DNA from: Collinsella sp. BA40
Lineage (GTDB): Bacteria > Actinomycetota > Coriobacteriia > Coriobacteriales > Coriobacteriaceae
Direction: 5' to 3'
NCBI RefSeq assembly: GCF_008014645.1
Contig: NZ_VOWY01000007.1
Span: forward strand, 124,001-188,000
Length of the DNA: 64,000 bases
Part shown: piece by piece, positions 42,579 to 48,809 of the stretch
Layout of the letters: each line of letters begins with the position of its first letter
Numbering within the stretch: the stretch's first letter is position 1
The notes under the pieces: generated by a model
What the model was told of the DNA's origin: nothing
What the model saw: only the letters and a program-made list of their open reading frames with translations
Database searches by the model: none
Translations under genes and position numbers: made by a program

Positions 42579-43160
42579 ATGCGATTTCTATCTTCGATTA
42601 GATTGATTCCAGTTCGACTTAAAGCACAATATAAGAAAAAGCAGTTTTTGCAAAACGCAACCTGCGGTCAGAACCTCAGTGTATCTTCAGCAGCAGGCTG
42701 CGATTCGTTCGATCGACAATCCATTGTGATTGGGGATGGATGCGAGATCGGGGCCTATCTTTCAGCTAAATGCGGAGCCCGGATTTCTATAGGTAATCGA
42801 ACGACTATCCGTAGTGGTCTTATTGGCGCAGCAGTTTCGATAGTTATTGGTAATGACGTTATAATCAGCAATAATGTTCACATTTACGATAACAATAATC
42901 ATCCAACAGATCCCGAGCAGCGCCTAGAGATGACCCAATCGGGTAGCTTTTACGGCCCTTTGTGGGCATGGGGCAAGTCTTCAAGGGCGCCGGTTGTTAT
43001 TGAAGATAACGTTTGGATAGGCGAGCGATCAACGATACTTAAGGGCGTTACAATCGGACGAGGATCTATTATCGGTTGCGATTCTGTGGTTACGAAAAGC
43101 ATCCCACCTTATAGCGTGGCTTGCGGAAATCCTGCAAAAGTTGTTAAGTGTTTAAAATAA
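42579..43160 (+). CDS. Left-handed beta-helix acyltransferase (WbbJ-like O-acetyltransferase)
   Basis: A 193-residue hexapeptide-repeat transferase. Imperfect I-G-x-x repeats run from about residue 45 (IVIGDGCEIGAY, ISIGNRTTIRSG, IVIGNDVIISNNVHIYDNNNH) and continue with VVIEDNVWIGERSTILKGVTIGRGSIIG and VACGNPAKVV. The catalytic His is probably in the DNNNHP loop. It probably O-acetylates the capsule repeat. GGAGGTGGGGGAG gives a strong ribosome site. Confidence 0.9.
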   Translation: MRFLSSIRLIPVRLKAQYKKKQFLQNATCGQNLSVSSAAGCDSFDRQSIVIGDGCEIGAYLSAKCGARISIGNRTTIRSGLIGAAVSIVIGNDVIISNNVHIYDNNNHPTDPEQRLEMTQSGSFYGPLWAWGKSSRAPVVIEDNVWIGERSTILKGVTIGRGSIIGCDSVVTKSIPPYSVACGNPAKVVKCLK

Positions 43161-43198
43161 GTTGCACATATAGCTTAAGCCGCTTTGAAAGGAATGAA

Positions 43199-44371
43199 AT
43201 GACTGAAACGGGAAAGTTCAAGCATGATGGTCGTTTACGTCTCCTCATCATCGTTGGCACTCGTCCGGAGGTCATCCGGCTTTCTGAAGTTATTAAGAAG
43301 TGCCGCAAACACTTCGATTGCATCCTTGCCCATACGGGTCAGAACTACGATTACACGCTCAACGGTATTTTCTTCCGTGATCTTGAGCTTGATGACCCCG
43401 ATGTGTATCTGGATGCCGTGGGAGATGGTCTTGGCGAGACCATGGGCAACATCATCGCGCGCTCGTACGACCTTATGAGAGAAATCGAGCCCGAGGCCTT
43501 GCTCGTGCTTGGCGACACGAATTCGTGTCTTTCTGCTATTGCCGCCAAACGCCTCCATATTCCGATCTTTCATATGGAGGCCGGCAATCGTTGTAAGGAT
43601 GAGTGCCTGCCCGAGGAAACTAATCGACGAATCGTTGACGTCATCTCGGATGTCAACCTTGCCTATTCTGAGCACGCTCGCCGCTATCTGAAGGATACCG
43701 GCTTGCCTCCCGAGCGCACATATGTGACTGGCTCTCCCATGGCTGAGGTTTTGCGTGCTAATATCGATAATATTGAAGCTTCCGACATCCATGTCCGTCT
43801 TGGTCTCGAGCCTAAGAAGTACATGCTGCTCTCTGCGCACCGCGAGGAGAACATCGATACGCCTGAGAACTTCGAGAGTCTTTTCGGTGCGATCAATAAG
43901 CTTGCTGAGATCTATCAGATGCCGATTCTCTATAGCTGTCATCCGCGCAGCCGTAAGCGCCTTGAGGAGACGGGTTTTGAGCTTCATCCGCTCGTTCGCA
44001 TGCACGAGCCTATGGGCTTCCATGATTACAACTGCCTTCAGTCCAATGCTTTCTGCGTAGTCTCTGATTCAGGTACGCTTCCTGAGGAGAGTTCGTTCTT
44101 TGCTTCCGTTGGTAAGCCGTTCCCGGCTGTGTGCATCCGTACGTCCACGGAGCGTCCCGAGGCTCTTGATAAGGCTTGCTTTACGCTTGCTGGCATAGAC
44201 GAGCGCGGTCTGGTCAATGCGGTTCGTACGGCGGTCGCCCTCGACGAAGAGGGCTCTTTGCCGCAGGCTCCCGTACCCGATTATGCCGACGAGAATGTTT
44301 CCACTAAGGTCGTAAAGATCATTCAGTCTTACACCGGCATCGTAGACAAGATGGTCTGGCGTAAGCGTTAA
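43199..44371 (+). CDS. capG: UDP-N-acetyl-L-talosamine 2-epimerase CapG (FnlC/WbjD-like)
   Basis: A 390-residue member of the non-hydrolysing 2-epimerase superfamily, in the branch that makes UDP-L-FucNAc. VGTRPEVIRLSEVI, LGDTNSCLSAIAAKR, HMEAGNRCKDECLPEETNRRIVDVISD, LSAHREENIDTPENF and SDSGTLPEESSFF are characteristic; WecB proteins have different residues at these sites. It completes CapE and CapF, although it lies 10 kb away at the other end of the operon. Its base composition returns to host-like. The start at 43199 follows AAAGGAATGAA. Confidence 0.9.
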   Translation: MTETGKFKHDGRLRLLIIVGTRPEVIRLSEVIKKCRKHFDCILAHTGQNYDYTLNGIFFRDLELDDPDVYLDAVGDGLGETMGNIIARSYDLMREIEPEALLVLGDTNSCLSAIAAKRLHIPIFHMEAGNRCKDECLPEETNRRIVDVISDVNLAYSEHARRYLKDTGLPPERTYVTGSPMAEVLRANIDNIEASDIHVRLGLEPKKYMLLSAHREENIDTPENFESLFGAINKLAEIYQMPILYSCHPRSRKRLEETGFELHPLVRMHEPMGFHDYNCLQSNAFCVVSDSGTLPEESSFFASVGKPFPAVCIRTSTERPEALDKACFTLAGIDERGLVNAVRTAVALDEEGSLPQAPVPDYADENVSTKVVKIIQSYTGIVDKMVWRKR

Positions 44372-44407
44372 GGAAGATCTGCTTAGCGCGTCTATATACT
44401 TTGTAAA

Positions 44408-44437
44408 AGGCCCGTTGCATCTGCACGGGTCTTTTTT
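44408..44437 (+). terminator. Terminator of the capsule operon
   Basis: Stem GGCCCGT/ACGGGTC with TGCA/TGCA extending the loop, then TTTTTT, 37 bp after capG. The insertion sequence begins three bases past the T-tract. Confidence 0.85.
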
Positions 44438-44464
44438 CTAATATGAGTTGAACATTGTCAAGTG

Positions 44465-44510
44465 CCAAAAAGACCCTGCCCTCCGCGGAGCTACCGCGGA
44501 CGGCAGGGTC
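44465..44510 (-). terminator. Terminator-like hairpin at the downstream end of the IS
   Basis: On the minus strand a stem of about 15 bp (GACCCTGCC plus CCGCGG, with small internal mismatches) is followed by TTTTT. It could end the transposase transcript or its 3' noncoding RNA. Confidence 0.7.
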
Positions 44511-44751
44511 CATCTATCTTCACCCGGTGGCCGCGCCGCTTGAGGGCGTGTCTGCTCGACGCACGTTCGGCACTCTAATATCCGCGGGTCGGAACCGCAT
44601 TTCGTTGCTACGGCTGGGGGCCTCCGCTCGGTCGCAGTCTTGTGGCGGGCGTGGCGGTCTCCCGCCGCCCAAAAAAAAGATCTGGAACGGCCTCCCAACG
44701 GCCTCGAGCGCGGCGCGCCCCCGGGGTCGGACTCCTATGGTGCCGCGGGCG
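44472..44751 (-). ncRNA. Candidate bridge/seek RNA of the IS110-type element
   Basis: This 280-bp noncoding segment lies between the transposase stop (44752) and the element's left end, on the transposase strand, and closes with a strong terminator hairpin. In IS1111-type elements the guide RNA that pairs with target and donor DNA is encoded downstream of the transposase. Location and length fit, but I did not fold it or identify the target- and donor-binding loops. Confidence 0.5.
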
Positions 44752-45855
44752 CTACCGGACCATGAGCGCTATCGCCCAGACCCAGCAGGCCATCTCGCGG
44801 GCCGTCGCGCAGTTCGCCACGCACGGCCTCTTGCCCGACCGGGACATGGCGTCTCGCCTGTCCTGCAGGCGGCGGTTGCACTTCGCGGCGTGCCTCGACA
44901 CGGCCGGCGCGACCCCGTGGCCCGGCCTCGGCTTCTTGGGGCGCCTCGTCGACATCGGGACGTGCCAGGAGGCCTCGACCAGCGCGCGCCGGACGTGGCC
45001 GTTGCCGGCGCGGGTGATCCCGCCGCGCGACTCCGTCTCGCCGCTCGAGCGCTCCGAGGGGGCCAGGCCGCACCACGAGGCGAACGACGGCGCGGTCGGG
45101 AACCTCGAGAAGTCGCCGGCCTCGGCGGCGAGCAGGAAGGCGCTCGCGACGTCGATGCCCTTGACCAGGCAGAGCGCATCGACGACCGGCGCCCACTCGG
45201 GCCGCGCGGCGGCCTCCTCCACCTTGCGCTCGAGCTCCCTCTTGGCCTCGGCGCAGCGCTCCACGGCGTCCATGTAGTGCTCGTAGGCGGCCGCGTCGTC
45301 GGCCTCGCCGAACTCGATCGACCTCGCCCACCTCCAGTACGCCTCGGTCCAGTTCGACCTGCGGCGCCCGGCAGGCGTCGTCTCGTCGAACACCAGGCCG
45401 TGCCTGAGCAGGAACTTGGACATGCGCTGCTTGGCGCGCTGCAGGTCGTCCCGCGCGTCCTCGAGCGCGCGGGAGAGGTCCCGGGCGGCCTCGGTGCGGT
45501 CGTCGGGCACCCACGCCTCGACGACGTTGCGGCAGGCGAGGAGCCTTGCCAGCCACTCGGCGTCGCGCCGGTCGTTCTTGCGGCCCCGGTCGGCCGCGGG
45601 CCGGTGCATCTTGGAGACGGCGCCCACGGCGCAGTCGACGCCGAGCGCCCTCAGGGCGCGGCAGAGGTGGAAGCCGGTCGGCCCGCTCTCGTACACCGCC
45701 TTGGGCGACTCGAACCCCAGGACCCACTCGGCGACCGACGCCGGGTCGTAGCCGAACCCGGCCCGGGTCACCTCGCCGGCCATGGGGTCGAAGGCGCATG
45801 CGGAGATGCTCCTTGCGCGGACGTCGAGACCGATGGCTGTGACATAATCGAACAT
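44752..45855 (-). CDS. IS110-family transposase
   Basis: A 367-residue DEDD/serine transposase. The N-terminal RuvC-like domain starts FDYVTAIGLDVRARSISACAFD, with the next acidic residue in KAVYESGPTGFHLCRAL and the third and fourth in KNDRRDAEWLARLL. The C-terminal Transposase_20 region contains LVKGIDVASAFLLAAEAGDFSRFPTAPSFASWCGLAPSE and the RGGITRAGNGHVRRALVEASW block that includes the catalytic serine region. The start at 45855 follows GAGAGGGG; the frame is open to 45954 but that part overlaps the element end. It appears intact. Confidence 0.93.
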   Translation of the reverse strand: MFDYVTAIGLDVRARSISACAFDPMAGEVTRAGFGYDPASVAEWVLGFESPKAVYESGPTGFHLCRALRALGVDCAVGAVSKMHRPAADRGRKNDRRDAEWLARLLACRNVVEAWVPDDRTEAARDLSRALEDARDDLQRAKQRMSKFLLRHGLVFDETTPAGRRRSNWTEAYWRWARSIEFGEADDAAAYEHYMDAVERCAEAKRELERKVEEAAARPEWAPVVDALCLVKGIDVASAFLLAAEAGDFSRFPTAPSFASWCGLAPSERSSGETESRGGITRAGNGHVRRALVEASWHVPMSTRRPKKPRPGHGVAPAVSRHAAKCNRRLQDRRDAMSRSGKRPCVANCATAREMACWVWAIALMVR

Positions 45856-45970
45856 GGCGGGCCCCTCTCCGTCGCATGTGGCGCGCGGCCACGGTTGGTG
45901 GTACGACCATTGTCGCCCGACCCACGATAGAGCTACAAGGGGAGGGGCTCCCAATGTTCAACTCATATCG

Positions 45971-46225
45971 TCTTGCGCCTGCCCGGATGATTTCGTCGGT
46001 GTAAACGGCCAGCTCAAGAAATGCGCATTGCTTATTGCAATGCTGTGCGCGTTCGGGCGTGAGGTTGATAATTTCGATTGTGTGTCGGAACGTCTTGGAC
46101 GCTATCTTCGTAATGTCATTGATATCTCTAAGCTCCAACGTGAAATCGGCTGGTAGTCCATGTACGCCGACTATGGATATTGGCTTGGCGACTACGATTG
46201 ATTGGTGCTGCGACTATAAGCTTTC
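45971..46225 (+). pseudogene. 3' remnant of a dTDP-glucose 4,6-dehydratase gene (rmlB)
   Basis: Directly after the IS, one frame encodes CACPDDFVGVNGQLKKCALLIAML... and then SERLGRYLRNVIDISKLQREIGW. This parallels the C-terminal RmlB pattern (NVGG.NE...; DRLGHDRRYAID..K..RELGW). Near 46155 the frame breaks, and the next frame continues SPCTPTMDIGLATTIDW, matching the family's final xxTFEEGLxxTIxWY. Key residues are altered and the 5' two thirds is missing, so it is a dead relic. It suggests the capsule locus once made a dTDP-sugar such as rhamnose. Confidence 0.65.
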
Positions 46226-46801: not shown

Positions 46802-46850
46802 TTGCGGGTTGCGAGCCTGAATTATAGGCAAATTATTTCGGGGGTGTTTG

Positions 46851-48809
46851 ATGGATCGTTTAACGATTAAAGAAATAGACGATGCAATAGTTCACTTGGA
46901 TTTTAGCTCTGTATCTTGCAAAGATAGTTCTAGAAGCGTTATTGTGTGGGCTCCAAATGGTACTGGGAAAAGCTCTATTGTTAGGGCACTGAGAGAGATT
47001 GGTTCGCGGAGCATCCAGATTGCTGACTGCGAGGAAAATAAGCTCGAGTTCGTAAAAATGAACAAGAAGCTATCGATAGCCCTTAATCTCAACCGTCTCG
47101 CCGATTTGGAGAATGATAAGAATGTGGCGGCCAGCAGCATTAATGCTAAGAAGAGACTAAAAGATCTCGGAATCACTTCTAAGGCTATAGTCTCGCAAGT
47201 ATTTCCTGGTCAAGCATGGAGTCCGTCGGCTAACGAGGATATCATTCCTAAGTTCAGGAAGGATGCCGCCATTGCTTTATCAGAGAGGCTCTCGGTTAAA
47301 GATTTACGGTTTTACGCTCATCACAGGAAAGAGCTCATCGAGATCAGAAGCCTAAAAGATGCTGCTGGGCAACTGAAAGATCGATTTATCTCTGACGCAA
47401 TTGACCTTCTTTCAAAGGGGGTGGCTGAAGATGATAGAATTTGCCCCATTTGTCATGCTCGGTTGGAGACTACATTGAAGGAGGTTTTACGTCAGCGAAA
47501 GAACGAGCTATCTAAAATGGAGAGCGGGCTTCTTGTAGAGTACGGCCGGCAGCGTCCTGATCTTTCTGCAGACCAAGTGGCGACACAATTAGAAGAAATG
47601 ACTATGGTTGGAGCCACAGATGAGGAGCTGGTCAGTCTTTGTCTTCTTGAAAGTATACAAGATGCGGATAAAACAGACGAATACGTGCGGGTGTACTGCA
47701 AAGCCAATGAAGAGATTAATAGGCTTCGGCGAGAAGCTGATGATTATTATGCAAATCTTCGTGACTCAGTGGAGAGTGTTGAGCGGGTATTCAAGGGAGT
47801 GTTTTCCGCTGAATCTGTCGAGTTGAACGAAGATGAGAAGAGTCTGGAAATAGTTTTGCCTCGTCCTGTAAATGAATACAGTTCAGGTGAGATTAATCTA
47901 ATGCTTACAACAGTACGTATACATGCATTTCTTGCAAGCGATAAATCGACGCTTGTGTTTGATGATCCTTTGTCAAGCTTGGATAAGGCAAACCAATACA
48001 ATACGATGTTTCAGTTTGTTCGTGCAGCAAGGGAAAGGGAAAGACAATTAGTCATTTTCACCCATAATATGGACTGCATTTCTATTGCTAATAATCAGGC
48101 GCCTGGCTCTTTTGACTACTTCGTCATGGAACGTCTAGGTAAAAAAATGGTTATAAATTCGATTCCAATTGACTTTTTCTCTAAGTCTGCCGTTGATTCT
48201 GCTTTTCTGGATGGCGCTTATGCTGATGGCTCTTTGTGTGCAGGCTCTATTGTTACCTATGCGAAAGCCAGAATTAAAGAGCAAGGTTCTGCGGAGCAAA
48301 TTACGGATGAAGGCTACGTTATTGACTACGTTGTCAATTCAGCCGAAAGGGAATCACGGGAATCCGATGCCCATTCCTTGCACGAGGTGTATCACTACAG
48401 GTTTTCACACACTGACCTAGACACCGGTTTAAGTAACGATACCCTCGTAAAAGATATTGATGAATTTGAGTATTTGTTTTTAGATCAAGAAGATTTCATA
48501 ACTAGGTCGGTGCAAAAAATCTATTTATTGACAGCTTTGAGGGTCTGGATAGAAAAGGAGATTTATAGATATTGTCCAGAGCTCGACAAGTCGAACCCCT
48601 TGCCAATTGGGAGATTAATCAGGGAAGCCATGAAGCAGTGGAAGGGTCCGAAAACGGTGACGAGGGAATACTTGAATTCGCTAAAGGTCATGCTAAACCA
48701 TAACGCGCATTACGGTGCGCAGGCTGCCCCATTTGATTATGCAGTCAACCTTTCATCCGATGAATTATGCAGAAAGATACTTGAGGTTAAGGCTGTTTTC
48801 GGACAATAG
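46851..48809 (+). CDS. ABC/SMC-type ATPase with CPxC motif, RloC/PrrC-like
   Basis: A 652-residue AAA_13-type ATPase. Walker A APNGTGKSS is near residue 35, and a CPICHAR zinc-hook-like motif lies near 203 between helical stretches. A degenerate signature YSSGEINLML is near 346, Walker B STLVFDDPLSSLD near 369 and the H-loop IFTHN near 405. The C-terminal third contains LRVWIEKEI (R-x3-E) followed some 50 residues later by NHNAH, an arrangement reminiscent of the Arg-Glu-His site of PrrC/RloC anticodon nucleases. It sits 87 bp before the retron ncRNA, is AT-rich and is likely a defence gene. Nuclease activity is inferred, not shown. Confidence 0.72.
   Translation: MDRLTIKEIDDAIVHLDFSSVSCKDSSRSVIVWAPNGTGKSSIVRALREIGSRSIQIADCEENKLEFVKMNKKLSIALNLNRLADLENDKNVAASSINAKKRLKDLGITSKAIVSQVFPGQAWSPSANEDIIPKFRKDAAIALSERLSVKDLRFYAHHRKELIEIRSLKDAAGQLKDRFISDAIDLLSKGVAEDDRICPICHARLETTLKEVLRQRKNELSKMESGLLVEYGRQRPDLSADQVATQLEEMTMVGATDEELVSLCLLESIQDADKTDEYVRVYCKANEEINRLRREADDYYANLRDSVESVERVFKGVFSAESVELNEDEKSLEIVLPRPVNEYSSGEINLMLTTVRIHAFLASDKSTLVFDDPLSSLDKANQYNTMFQFVRAARERERQLVIFTHNMDCISIANNQAPGSFDYFVMERLGKKMVINSIPIDFFSKSAVDSAFLDGAYADGSLCAGSIVTYAKARIKEQGSAEQITDEGYVIDYVVNSAERESRESDAHSLHEVYHYRFSHTDLDTGLSNDTLVKDIDEFEYLFLDQEDFITRSVQKIYLLTALRVWIEKEIYRYCPELDKSNPLPIGRLIREAMKQWKGPKTVTREYLNSLKVMLNHNAHYGAQAAPFDYAVNLSSDELCRKILEVKAVFGQ

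Follow-up and report, generated by a model that had tools for sequence, protein, structure and literature searches.

An insertion sequence behind a host terminator

The window analysed here is a stretch of 64,000 nucleotides from Collinsella sp. BA40 (contig NZ_VOWY01000007.1), whose genome is assembled as 1.93 Mb in 30 contigs. Its minus strand carries an element that a first-pass annotation had placed at 44441-45968 and assigned to the IS110/IS1111 type. Judged by its sequence, this is a complete IS1111-type insertion sequence and a member of the IS1111 family that was not described before. It follows the intrinsic terminator of a UDP-GlcNAc 2-epimerase gene, and we consider it highly probable that the whole is explained by an IS1111-family element with an RNA guide aimed at the terminator tract. 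The features of the locus are the following.

44405-44437, plus strand: intrinsic terminator of the host UDP-GlcNAc 2-epimerase gene (43148-44371), from its fold and T6 run; its U-tract provides the target's right half
44440-45973, minus strand: insertion sequence including both terminal extensions (AGACG...T), from the invariance of AGACG and TA and the native terminators of relatives
44439-45972, minus strand: the same insertion sequence if the ends are GACG...TA, an alternative call with 1-bp uncertainty
45969-45973, minus strand: left terminal extension AGACG (CGTCT on the plus strand), from its invariance across copies
45952-45968, minus strand: left subterminal inverted repeat, 17 bp, from a repeat search
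44752-45855, minus strand: DEDD transposase/recombinase of 367 aa, from Pfam, NCBIfam, residue alignment, AlphaFold and Foldseek
44467-44510, minus strand: terminator of the element itself, from its RNA fold
44441-44457, minus strand: right subterminal inverted repeat, 17 bp, from a repeat search
44439-44440, minus strand: right terminal extension TA, its second base common with the target, from its invariance across copies

The 17-bp inverted repeats are perfect, as first noted, and subterminal, with the ends of the element slightly outside them. AGACG outside the left repeat and TA outside the right one were identical in all intact copies, and the terminal extensions, counted from the repeats as seen, are of 5+1 or 4+2 bp. 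Uninterrupted orthologous terminators of ffs and tRNA-Lys were found in relatives (e.g. CATGAAAAAGCCCC and CACCAAAAAGCGCC), and excising AGACG...T (or GACG...TA) gives back the five-A run seen in them; therefore the element spans 44440-45973 or 44439-45972. The insertion point is ambiguous by one A because searches with the joined flanks gave just orthologous terminators with diverged left flanks and no exact empty site. The upstream (5') region has 113 bp, counted to the outer end of the repeat. The 3' noncoding region (NCR) on the transposase strand is 294 bp long, rather than the 280 bp first claimed, and does close with a very stable terminator (-37.8 kcal/mol, z -8.6 by RNA folding).

The transposase contains the Pfam domains DEDD_Tnp_IS110 and Transposase_20 and scores 192 bits against the NCBIfam model transpos_IS110 (cut-off 140). 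Residues D11, E56, D95 and D98, together with S271-G272, were unchanged in 13 relatives, and the C-terminal GLAPSERSSG is the IS1111 motif GL-P----S(T)G. Its AlphaFold model (pLDDT 85.6) matched IS621 (8wt9, E 4e-13) and ISCro4 (9t56, E 9e-12) in Foldseek and nothing else below E 0.001. On these domains and this predicted structure it is an intact DEDD recombinase, in agreement with the first-pass annotation, with the fold of the IS621/ISCro4 bridge recombinases.

A predicted structured RNA downstream of the transposase

Within the 3' NCR we delimited an RNA domain with two candidate guides.

44611-44701, minus strand: seekRNA/bridge-RNA target-binding domain, from the RNA model, covariation and window fold
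44671-44682, minus strand: right target guide (RTG) GAUCUUUUUUUU, complementary (with G.U) to the right flank AGAAAAAAGA, from guide/flank comparison
44637-44645, minus strand: left target guide (LTG) CCACAAGAC, predicted to pair with the bottom strand, from guide/flank comparison

The RNA model has 91 positions and was built from ten Collinsella-type NCRs. A stem leads into an internal loop and then a capped hairpin, with a U-run (the RTG) on the 5' side of the loop and an end in ...AGAC (the LTG) on its 3' side. The window's own domain folds at -42.2 kcal/mol (z -2.5). Among 26 distinct sequences from Coriobacteriia, 17 of the 25 pairs of the domain showed compensatory changes. Double-changed cells numbered 67 against 19.8 +/- 3.2 after shuffling (0/500) and slid versions came nowhere near, in an alignment that was fitted to the model and is thereby biased in its favour. 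RNAalifold, predicting independently, reproduced the greater part of outer stem and capped hairpin, with double changes in 13 pairs. A search of Rfam gave nothing at curated thresholds, and the three weak sub-threshold matches were judged to be chance. With the model itself the domain was found in 19 of 400 Coriobacteriia genomes, belonging to 11 genera, and when the search was sampled evenly across the phylum it was confined to genomes of the host's own order.

A region on the transposase strand, directly behind the gene and with a terminator at its end, could also be a regulatory 3' untranslated region of the transposase mRNA with no guide in it. Yet its variable positions are mainly the two loop strands, both of which follow the flanks, and its position and guide order agree with experimentally proven seekRNAs; we regard this explanation as the least credible of those considered here. 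The covarying structure and the guide/flank covariation described below support a guide RNA (seekRNA or bridge RNA) in the 3' region. The first-pass annotation had proposed such an RNA and raised two doubts about it, namely a lack of conserved structure and a guide complementarity found only upstream. Both came out in its favour: the structure is conserved as described, and the guides are in the downstream NCR, the 113-nt 5' region being free of any A/T tract.

Guides and flanks vary together

In the window the RTG GAUCUUUUUUUU stands opposite AGAAAAAAGACC, and the LTG bases CACAAG agree with the left flank GCGCAAG at 5/6 bases. The RTG is 5' of the LTG on the RNA strand, which is the IS1111 order of top match and then bottom match. 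Exact examples were found among the relatives. In L163, UCCCUUUU pairs with AAAAGGGA, and in L021 the match extends over nine right-hand bases (RTG GCCUCUUUU with flank AAAAGAGGC) and five left-hand bases (LTG ACAAA with flank ACAAA). Besides, the C. phocaeensis copy L051 has a different guide and is located at a correspondingly different target, as a naturally re-aimed copy. When its own genome was searched for further exact targets of the window guide, the guide itself was the one match.

For the left guide, the RNA triplet that precedes AGAC was set against the flank triplet that precedes AGACG. Over 47 sites of 19 guide types the matches were 40.1 of 57, against 21.3 +/- 3.2 in permutations of the guides across types that ignore phylogeny (0/20000, p<5e-5). 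For the right guide, scored as the best contiguous pairing per type with guides and flanks extracted automatically, the values were 171.7 against 156.5 +/- 5.1 (p=0.003; 22 types), one type (L176/L177) being misparsed in a way that lowers rather than raises the result.

The insertion sites are enriched for terminators

We collected 12 full copies from C. phocaeensis, about 15 from C. tanakaei (the majority with assembly gaps) and more full or partial ones from other Collinsella, an Atopobiaceae metagenome-assembled genome and other genera of Coriobacteriia. They represent 62 distinct sites, with shared ends and a single orientation; a false site, L134, was taken out. The right end of nearly every copy continues as TAAAA(A)G or something very close to it, which is what a terminator U-tract reads on the complementary strand. 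In the window, the region 44392-44440 folds at -17.6 kcal/mol (z -5.1, 0/200 shuffles) and the T6 run is at 44432-44437. We scored hairpins that immediately precede the tract when it is read in the direction of the element, with a cut-off of -15 kcal/mol or better. Such hairpins were present at 37 of the 62 sites (60%), against 18/188 T-tracts of the window, 51/400 random positions and 30/310 shuffled flanks (controls 10-13%, p<1e-14 against each of the three). T-tracts pooled from all fetched loci were dropped as a control, this set being itself rich in terminators. The terminator hit in the window is that of the UDP-GlcNAc 2-epimerase gene; elsewhere, those of ffs, several tRNAs and trxA, which we recognised by their sequence, are among the sites. 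The right end of the element invariably faces the terminator, and hairpin and U-tract stay intact; therefore the cost to the host is probably small.

Group IIC introns insert behind intrinsic terminators. Similarly, the recombinase could read the terminator hairpin itself as a DNA structure, as those introns do (PMC10190682), the A-run being incidental. The strong hairpins at 60% of the sites are what this would predict, but about a quarter of the sites have no clear hairpin and the guide strands covary with the flanks. In C. phocaeensis the target word YGAAAAAGS has 25 unoccupied matches against 10 for the reversed control word, and hairpins of -10 kcal/mol or better accompany 16/25 of these unoccupied words and 8/12 occupied sites (p=1.0, a small sample). 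The unoccupied words being as hairpin-rich as the occupied ones, the word by itself is a sufficient explanation of the terminator bias in the C. phocaeensis genome (37 sites only). Reading of the hairpin is therefore improbable, and it is probably the target word that gets read, as far as sequence comparison can tell.

Another alternative is an insertion far less specific, with selection sparing just the harmless copies behind terminators. The sites are intergenic gene ends and selection will certainly contribute, but it leaves unexplained the one orientation, the one register, the word shared by nearly all sites and the covariation of guide and flank. As a sufficient cause we find it very improbable.

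Some observations weigh against an RNA guide aimed at the terminator tract. Apart from the sites that lack a hairpin, there was no exact same-strain empty site among the results of the joined-flank searches. Guide types of common ancestry, which the permutations count separately, are not independent, and the covariation of the right guide is the weaker because nearly all right guides are U-runs. Guide and flank mismatch in L050 (at -1), L215 and L211, and in C. phocaeensis the left guides of L047 and L052 do not fit their own sites. The NCR of these last two copies is chimeric, with the left guide CCTCA, and it is the guide of the other copies that their sites fit. Movement in trans is one possible reason, and a gene conversion that followed the insertion is another.

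A predicted circle junction and a candidate donor guide

Two further features bear on the way in which an element with this guide would move.

44573-44583, minus strand: candidate left donor guide GGAUAUUAGAG, with an identical stretch of 8 nt in the predicted circle junction CTCATATTAGACG, from a sequence match
44456-44461, minus strand: TTGACA in the right end, conserved in copies, a possible -35 of a circle-junction promoter

By analogy with the family, the ends of a circular intermediate, joined in the predicted junction CTCATATTAGACGATATGAG, would form a promoter, probably for a common transcript of transposase gene and 3' NCR. The NCR would yield a seekRNA/bridge RNA of 70-100 nt to be bound by the recombinase. 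The target would consist of about three guide-specified bases and then the A-run complementary to the terminator U-tract, and the element would land immediately after the host terminator, in convergent orientation to the host gene, with hairpin and U-tract intact.

The NCR word AUAUUAGA equals the predicted circle junction across 8 bases, with a chance expectation of ~0.02. Almost all relatives have retained AUAUUA, and the junction word AUAUUA(GA) lies in the RNA; the ends being invariant, they give no covariation signal. The donor, which the first-pass annotation had hoped to read together with the target, is thus readable in part, by way of AUAUUA(GA) alone. CGUC was considered as right donor guide and dropped for lack of conservation in the second subgroup.

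Comparison with known systems

The mechanism class is already known, and the interest lies in the target class and in the natural series of guides and targets. The seekRNA study of IS1111 elements (PMC11187229) describes the repeats, the downstream NCR, the GL-P----SG motif and the top match before the bottom match. Subterminal repeats in IS1111 are usually of 11-13 bp (7-17 reported), and extensions usually of 7 (or 6) bp on the left and 3 on the right, which is not absolute. Like ISEc11, ISKpn4, ISPst6 and ISPa11 (PMC11187229), the Collinsella element has subterminal repeats, an NCR downstream of tnp, a DEDD transposase with GL-P----SG and a top-strand guide 5' of the bottom-strand guide; a single site type with one orientation per insertion sequence and natural reprogramming between relatives are also shared. 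In contrast, their targets are a linear site, attC or REP, and here a terminator A/U-tract; their extensions are 7+3 bp, and here 5+1 (or 4+2); their transposases have 330-350 aa, and here 367.

With IS621/IS110 bridge RNA systems (PMC11208160; PDB 8wt6, 8wt9) it has in common the recombinase fold (TM 0.6-0.7) and a target-binding internal loop whose two guide strands would pair with opposite strands. In IS621 the left end, ahead of the recombinase gene, encodes the bridge RNA; here the RNA is 3' of tnp, the guide order is reversed and there are long subterminal repeats. The donor-binding loop of IS621 contains a left and a right donor guide, and here AUAUUA(GA) is the one candidate word. Group IIC introns (PMC10190682) are likewise RNA-guided and associated with DNA stem-loops, but they are retroelements that recognise the stem-loop structure, seemingly dispensable here.

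Terminators are not mentioned in the bridge RNA paper (PMC11208160), and in PMC11187229 they appear for cloning constructs alone. Neither did we find a report of IS110/IS1111 targeting of terminators in the open full-text literature, which leaves most subscription journals outside its scope. The A/U-tract of intrinsic terminators thus appears to be an undescribed target class for IS1111, a novelty that we take as provisional. On balance we lean towards a class-wide Coriobacteriia lineage of IS1111 whose guides have evolved within the theme of the terminator U-tract, each addressing a class of harmless sites in an RNA-guided "safe-site" strategy. If so, a guide would accept any terminator whose few adjacent bases are suitable, instead of one repeat family, and the lineage would have an RNA-guided way of inserting behind genes in general at low cost. 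How IS1111 guide RNAs pair with their targets is less well resolved than the pairing of IS621, and the 19-22 natural guide/target pairs give a ready dataset for working out these rules. In gut Actinomycetota the lineage may also be a source of recombinases whose programming relies on short A-tract targets.

Related copies and neighbouring genes

A search of viral contigs with the element gave no match. The element's own terminator resembles the target: at 44467-44481 its complementary strand AAAAAGACCC is similar to the target right half AAAAAAGACCC and differs from the target in the left half, which may prevent self-insertion.

A second subfamily (L206-L213, L216, L021) has the repeats AAAGCCATTG / CAATGGCTTT and a transposase ~55-62% identical; its extensions are likewise AGACG and TA, and it has its own guides. 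The same terminator has been struck independently by different subfamilies or types in different species, that of ffs in L052 and L209 and the GGGAGGAG hairpin in L163 and L166. In the host genome (G000) at least four additional copies of a related element are found at contig breaks (left ends L002-L005, right ends L006-L009). Their flanks AAAGACG and TAAAGGG imply another guide, the interior being absent from the assembly. In L066 (2454-3311) two left ends face each other around ~860 bp, possibly an end-to-end derivative without right end. Adjoining the insertion in the window, at 46848-48809, is an AAA_13-type ATPase with weak matches to the defence models LmuB and PDC-S06.
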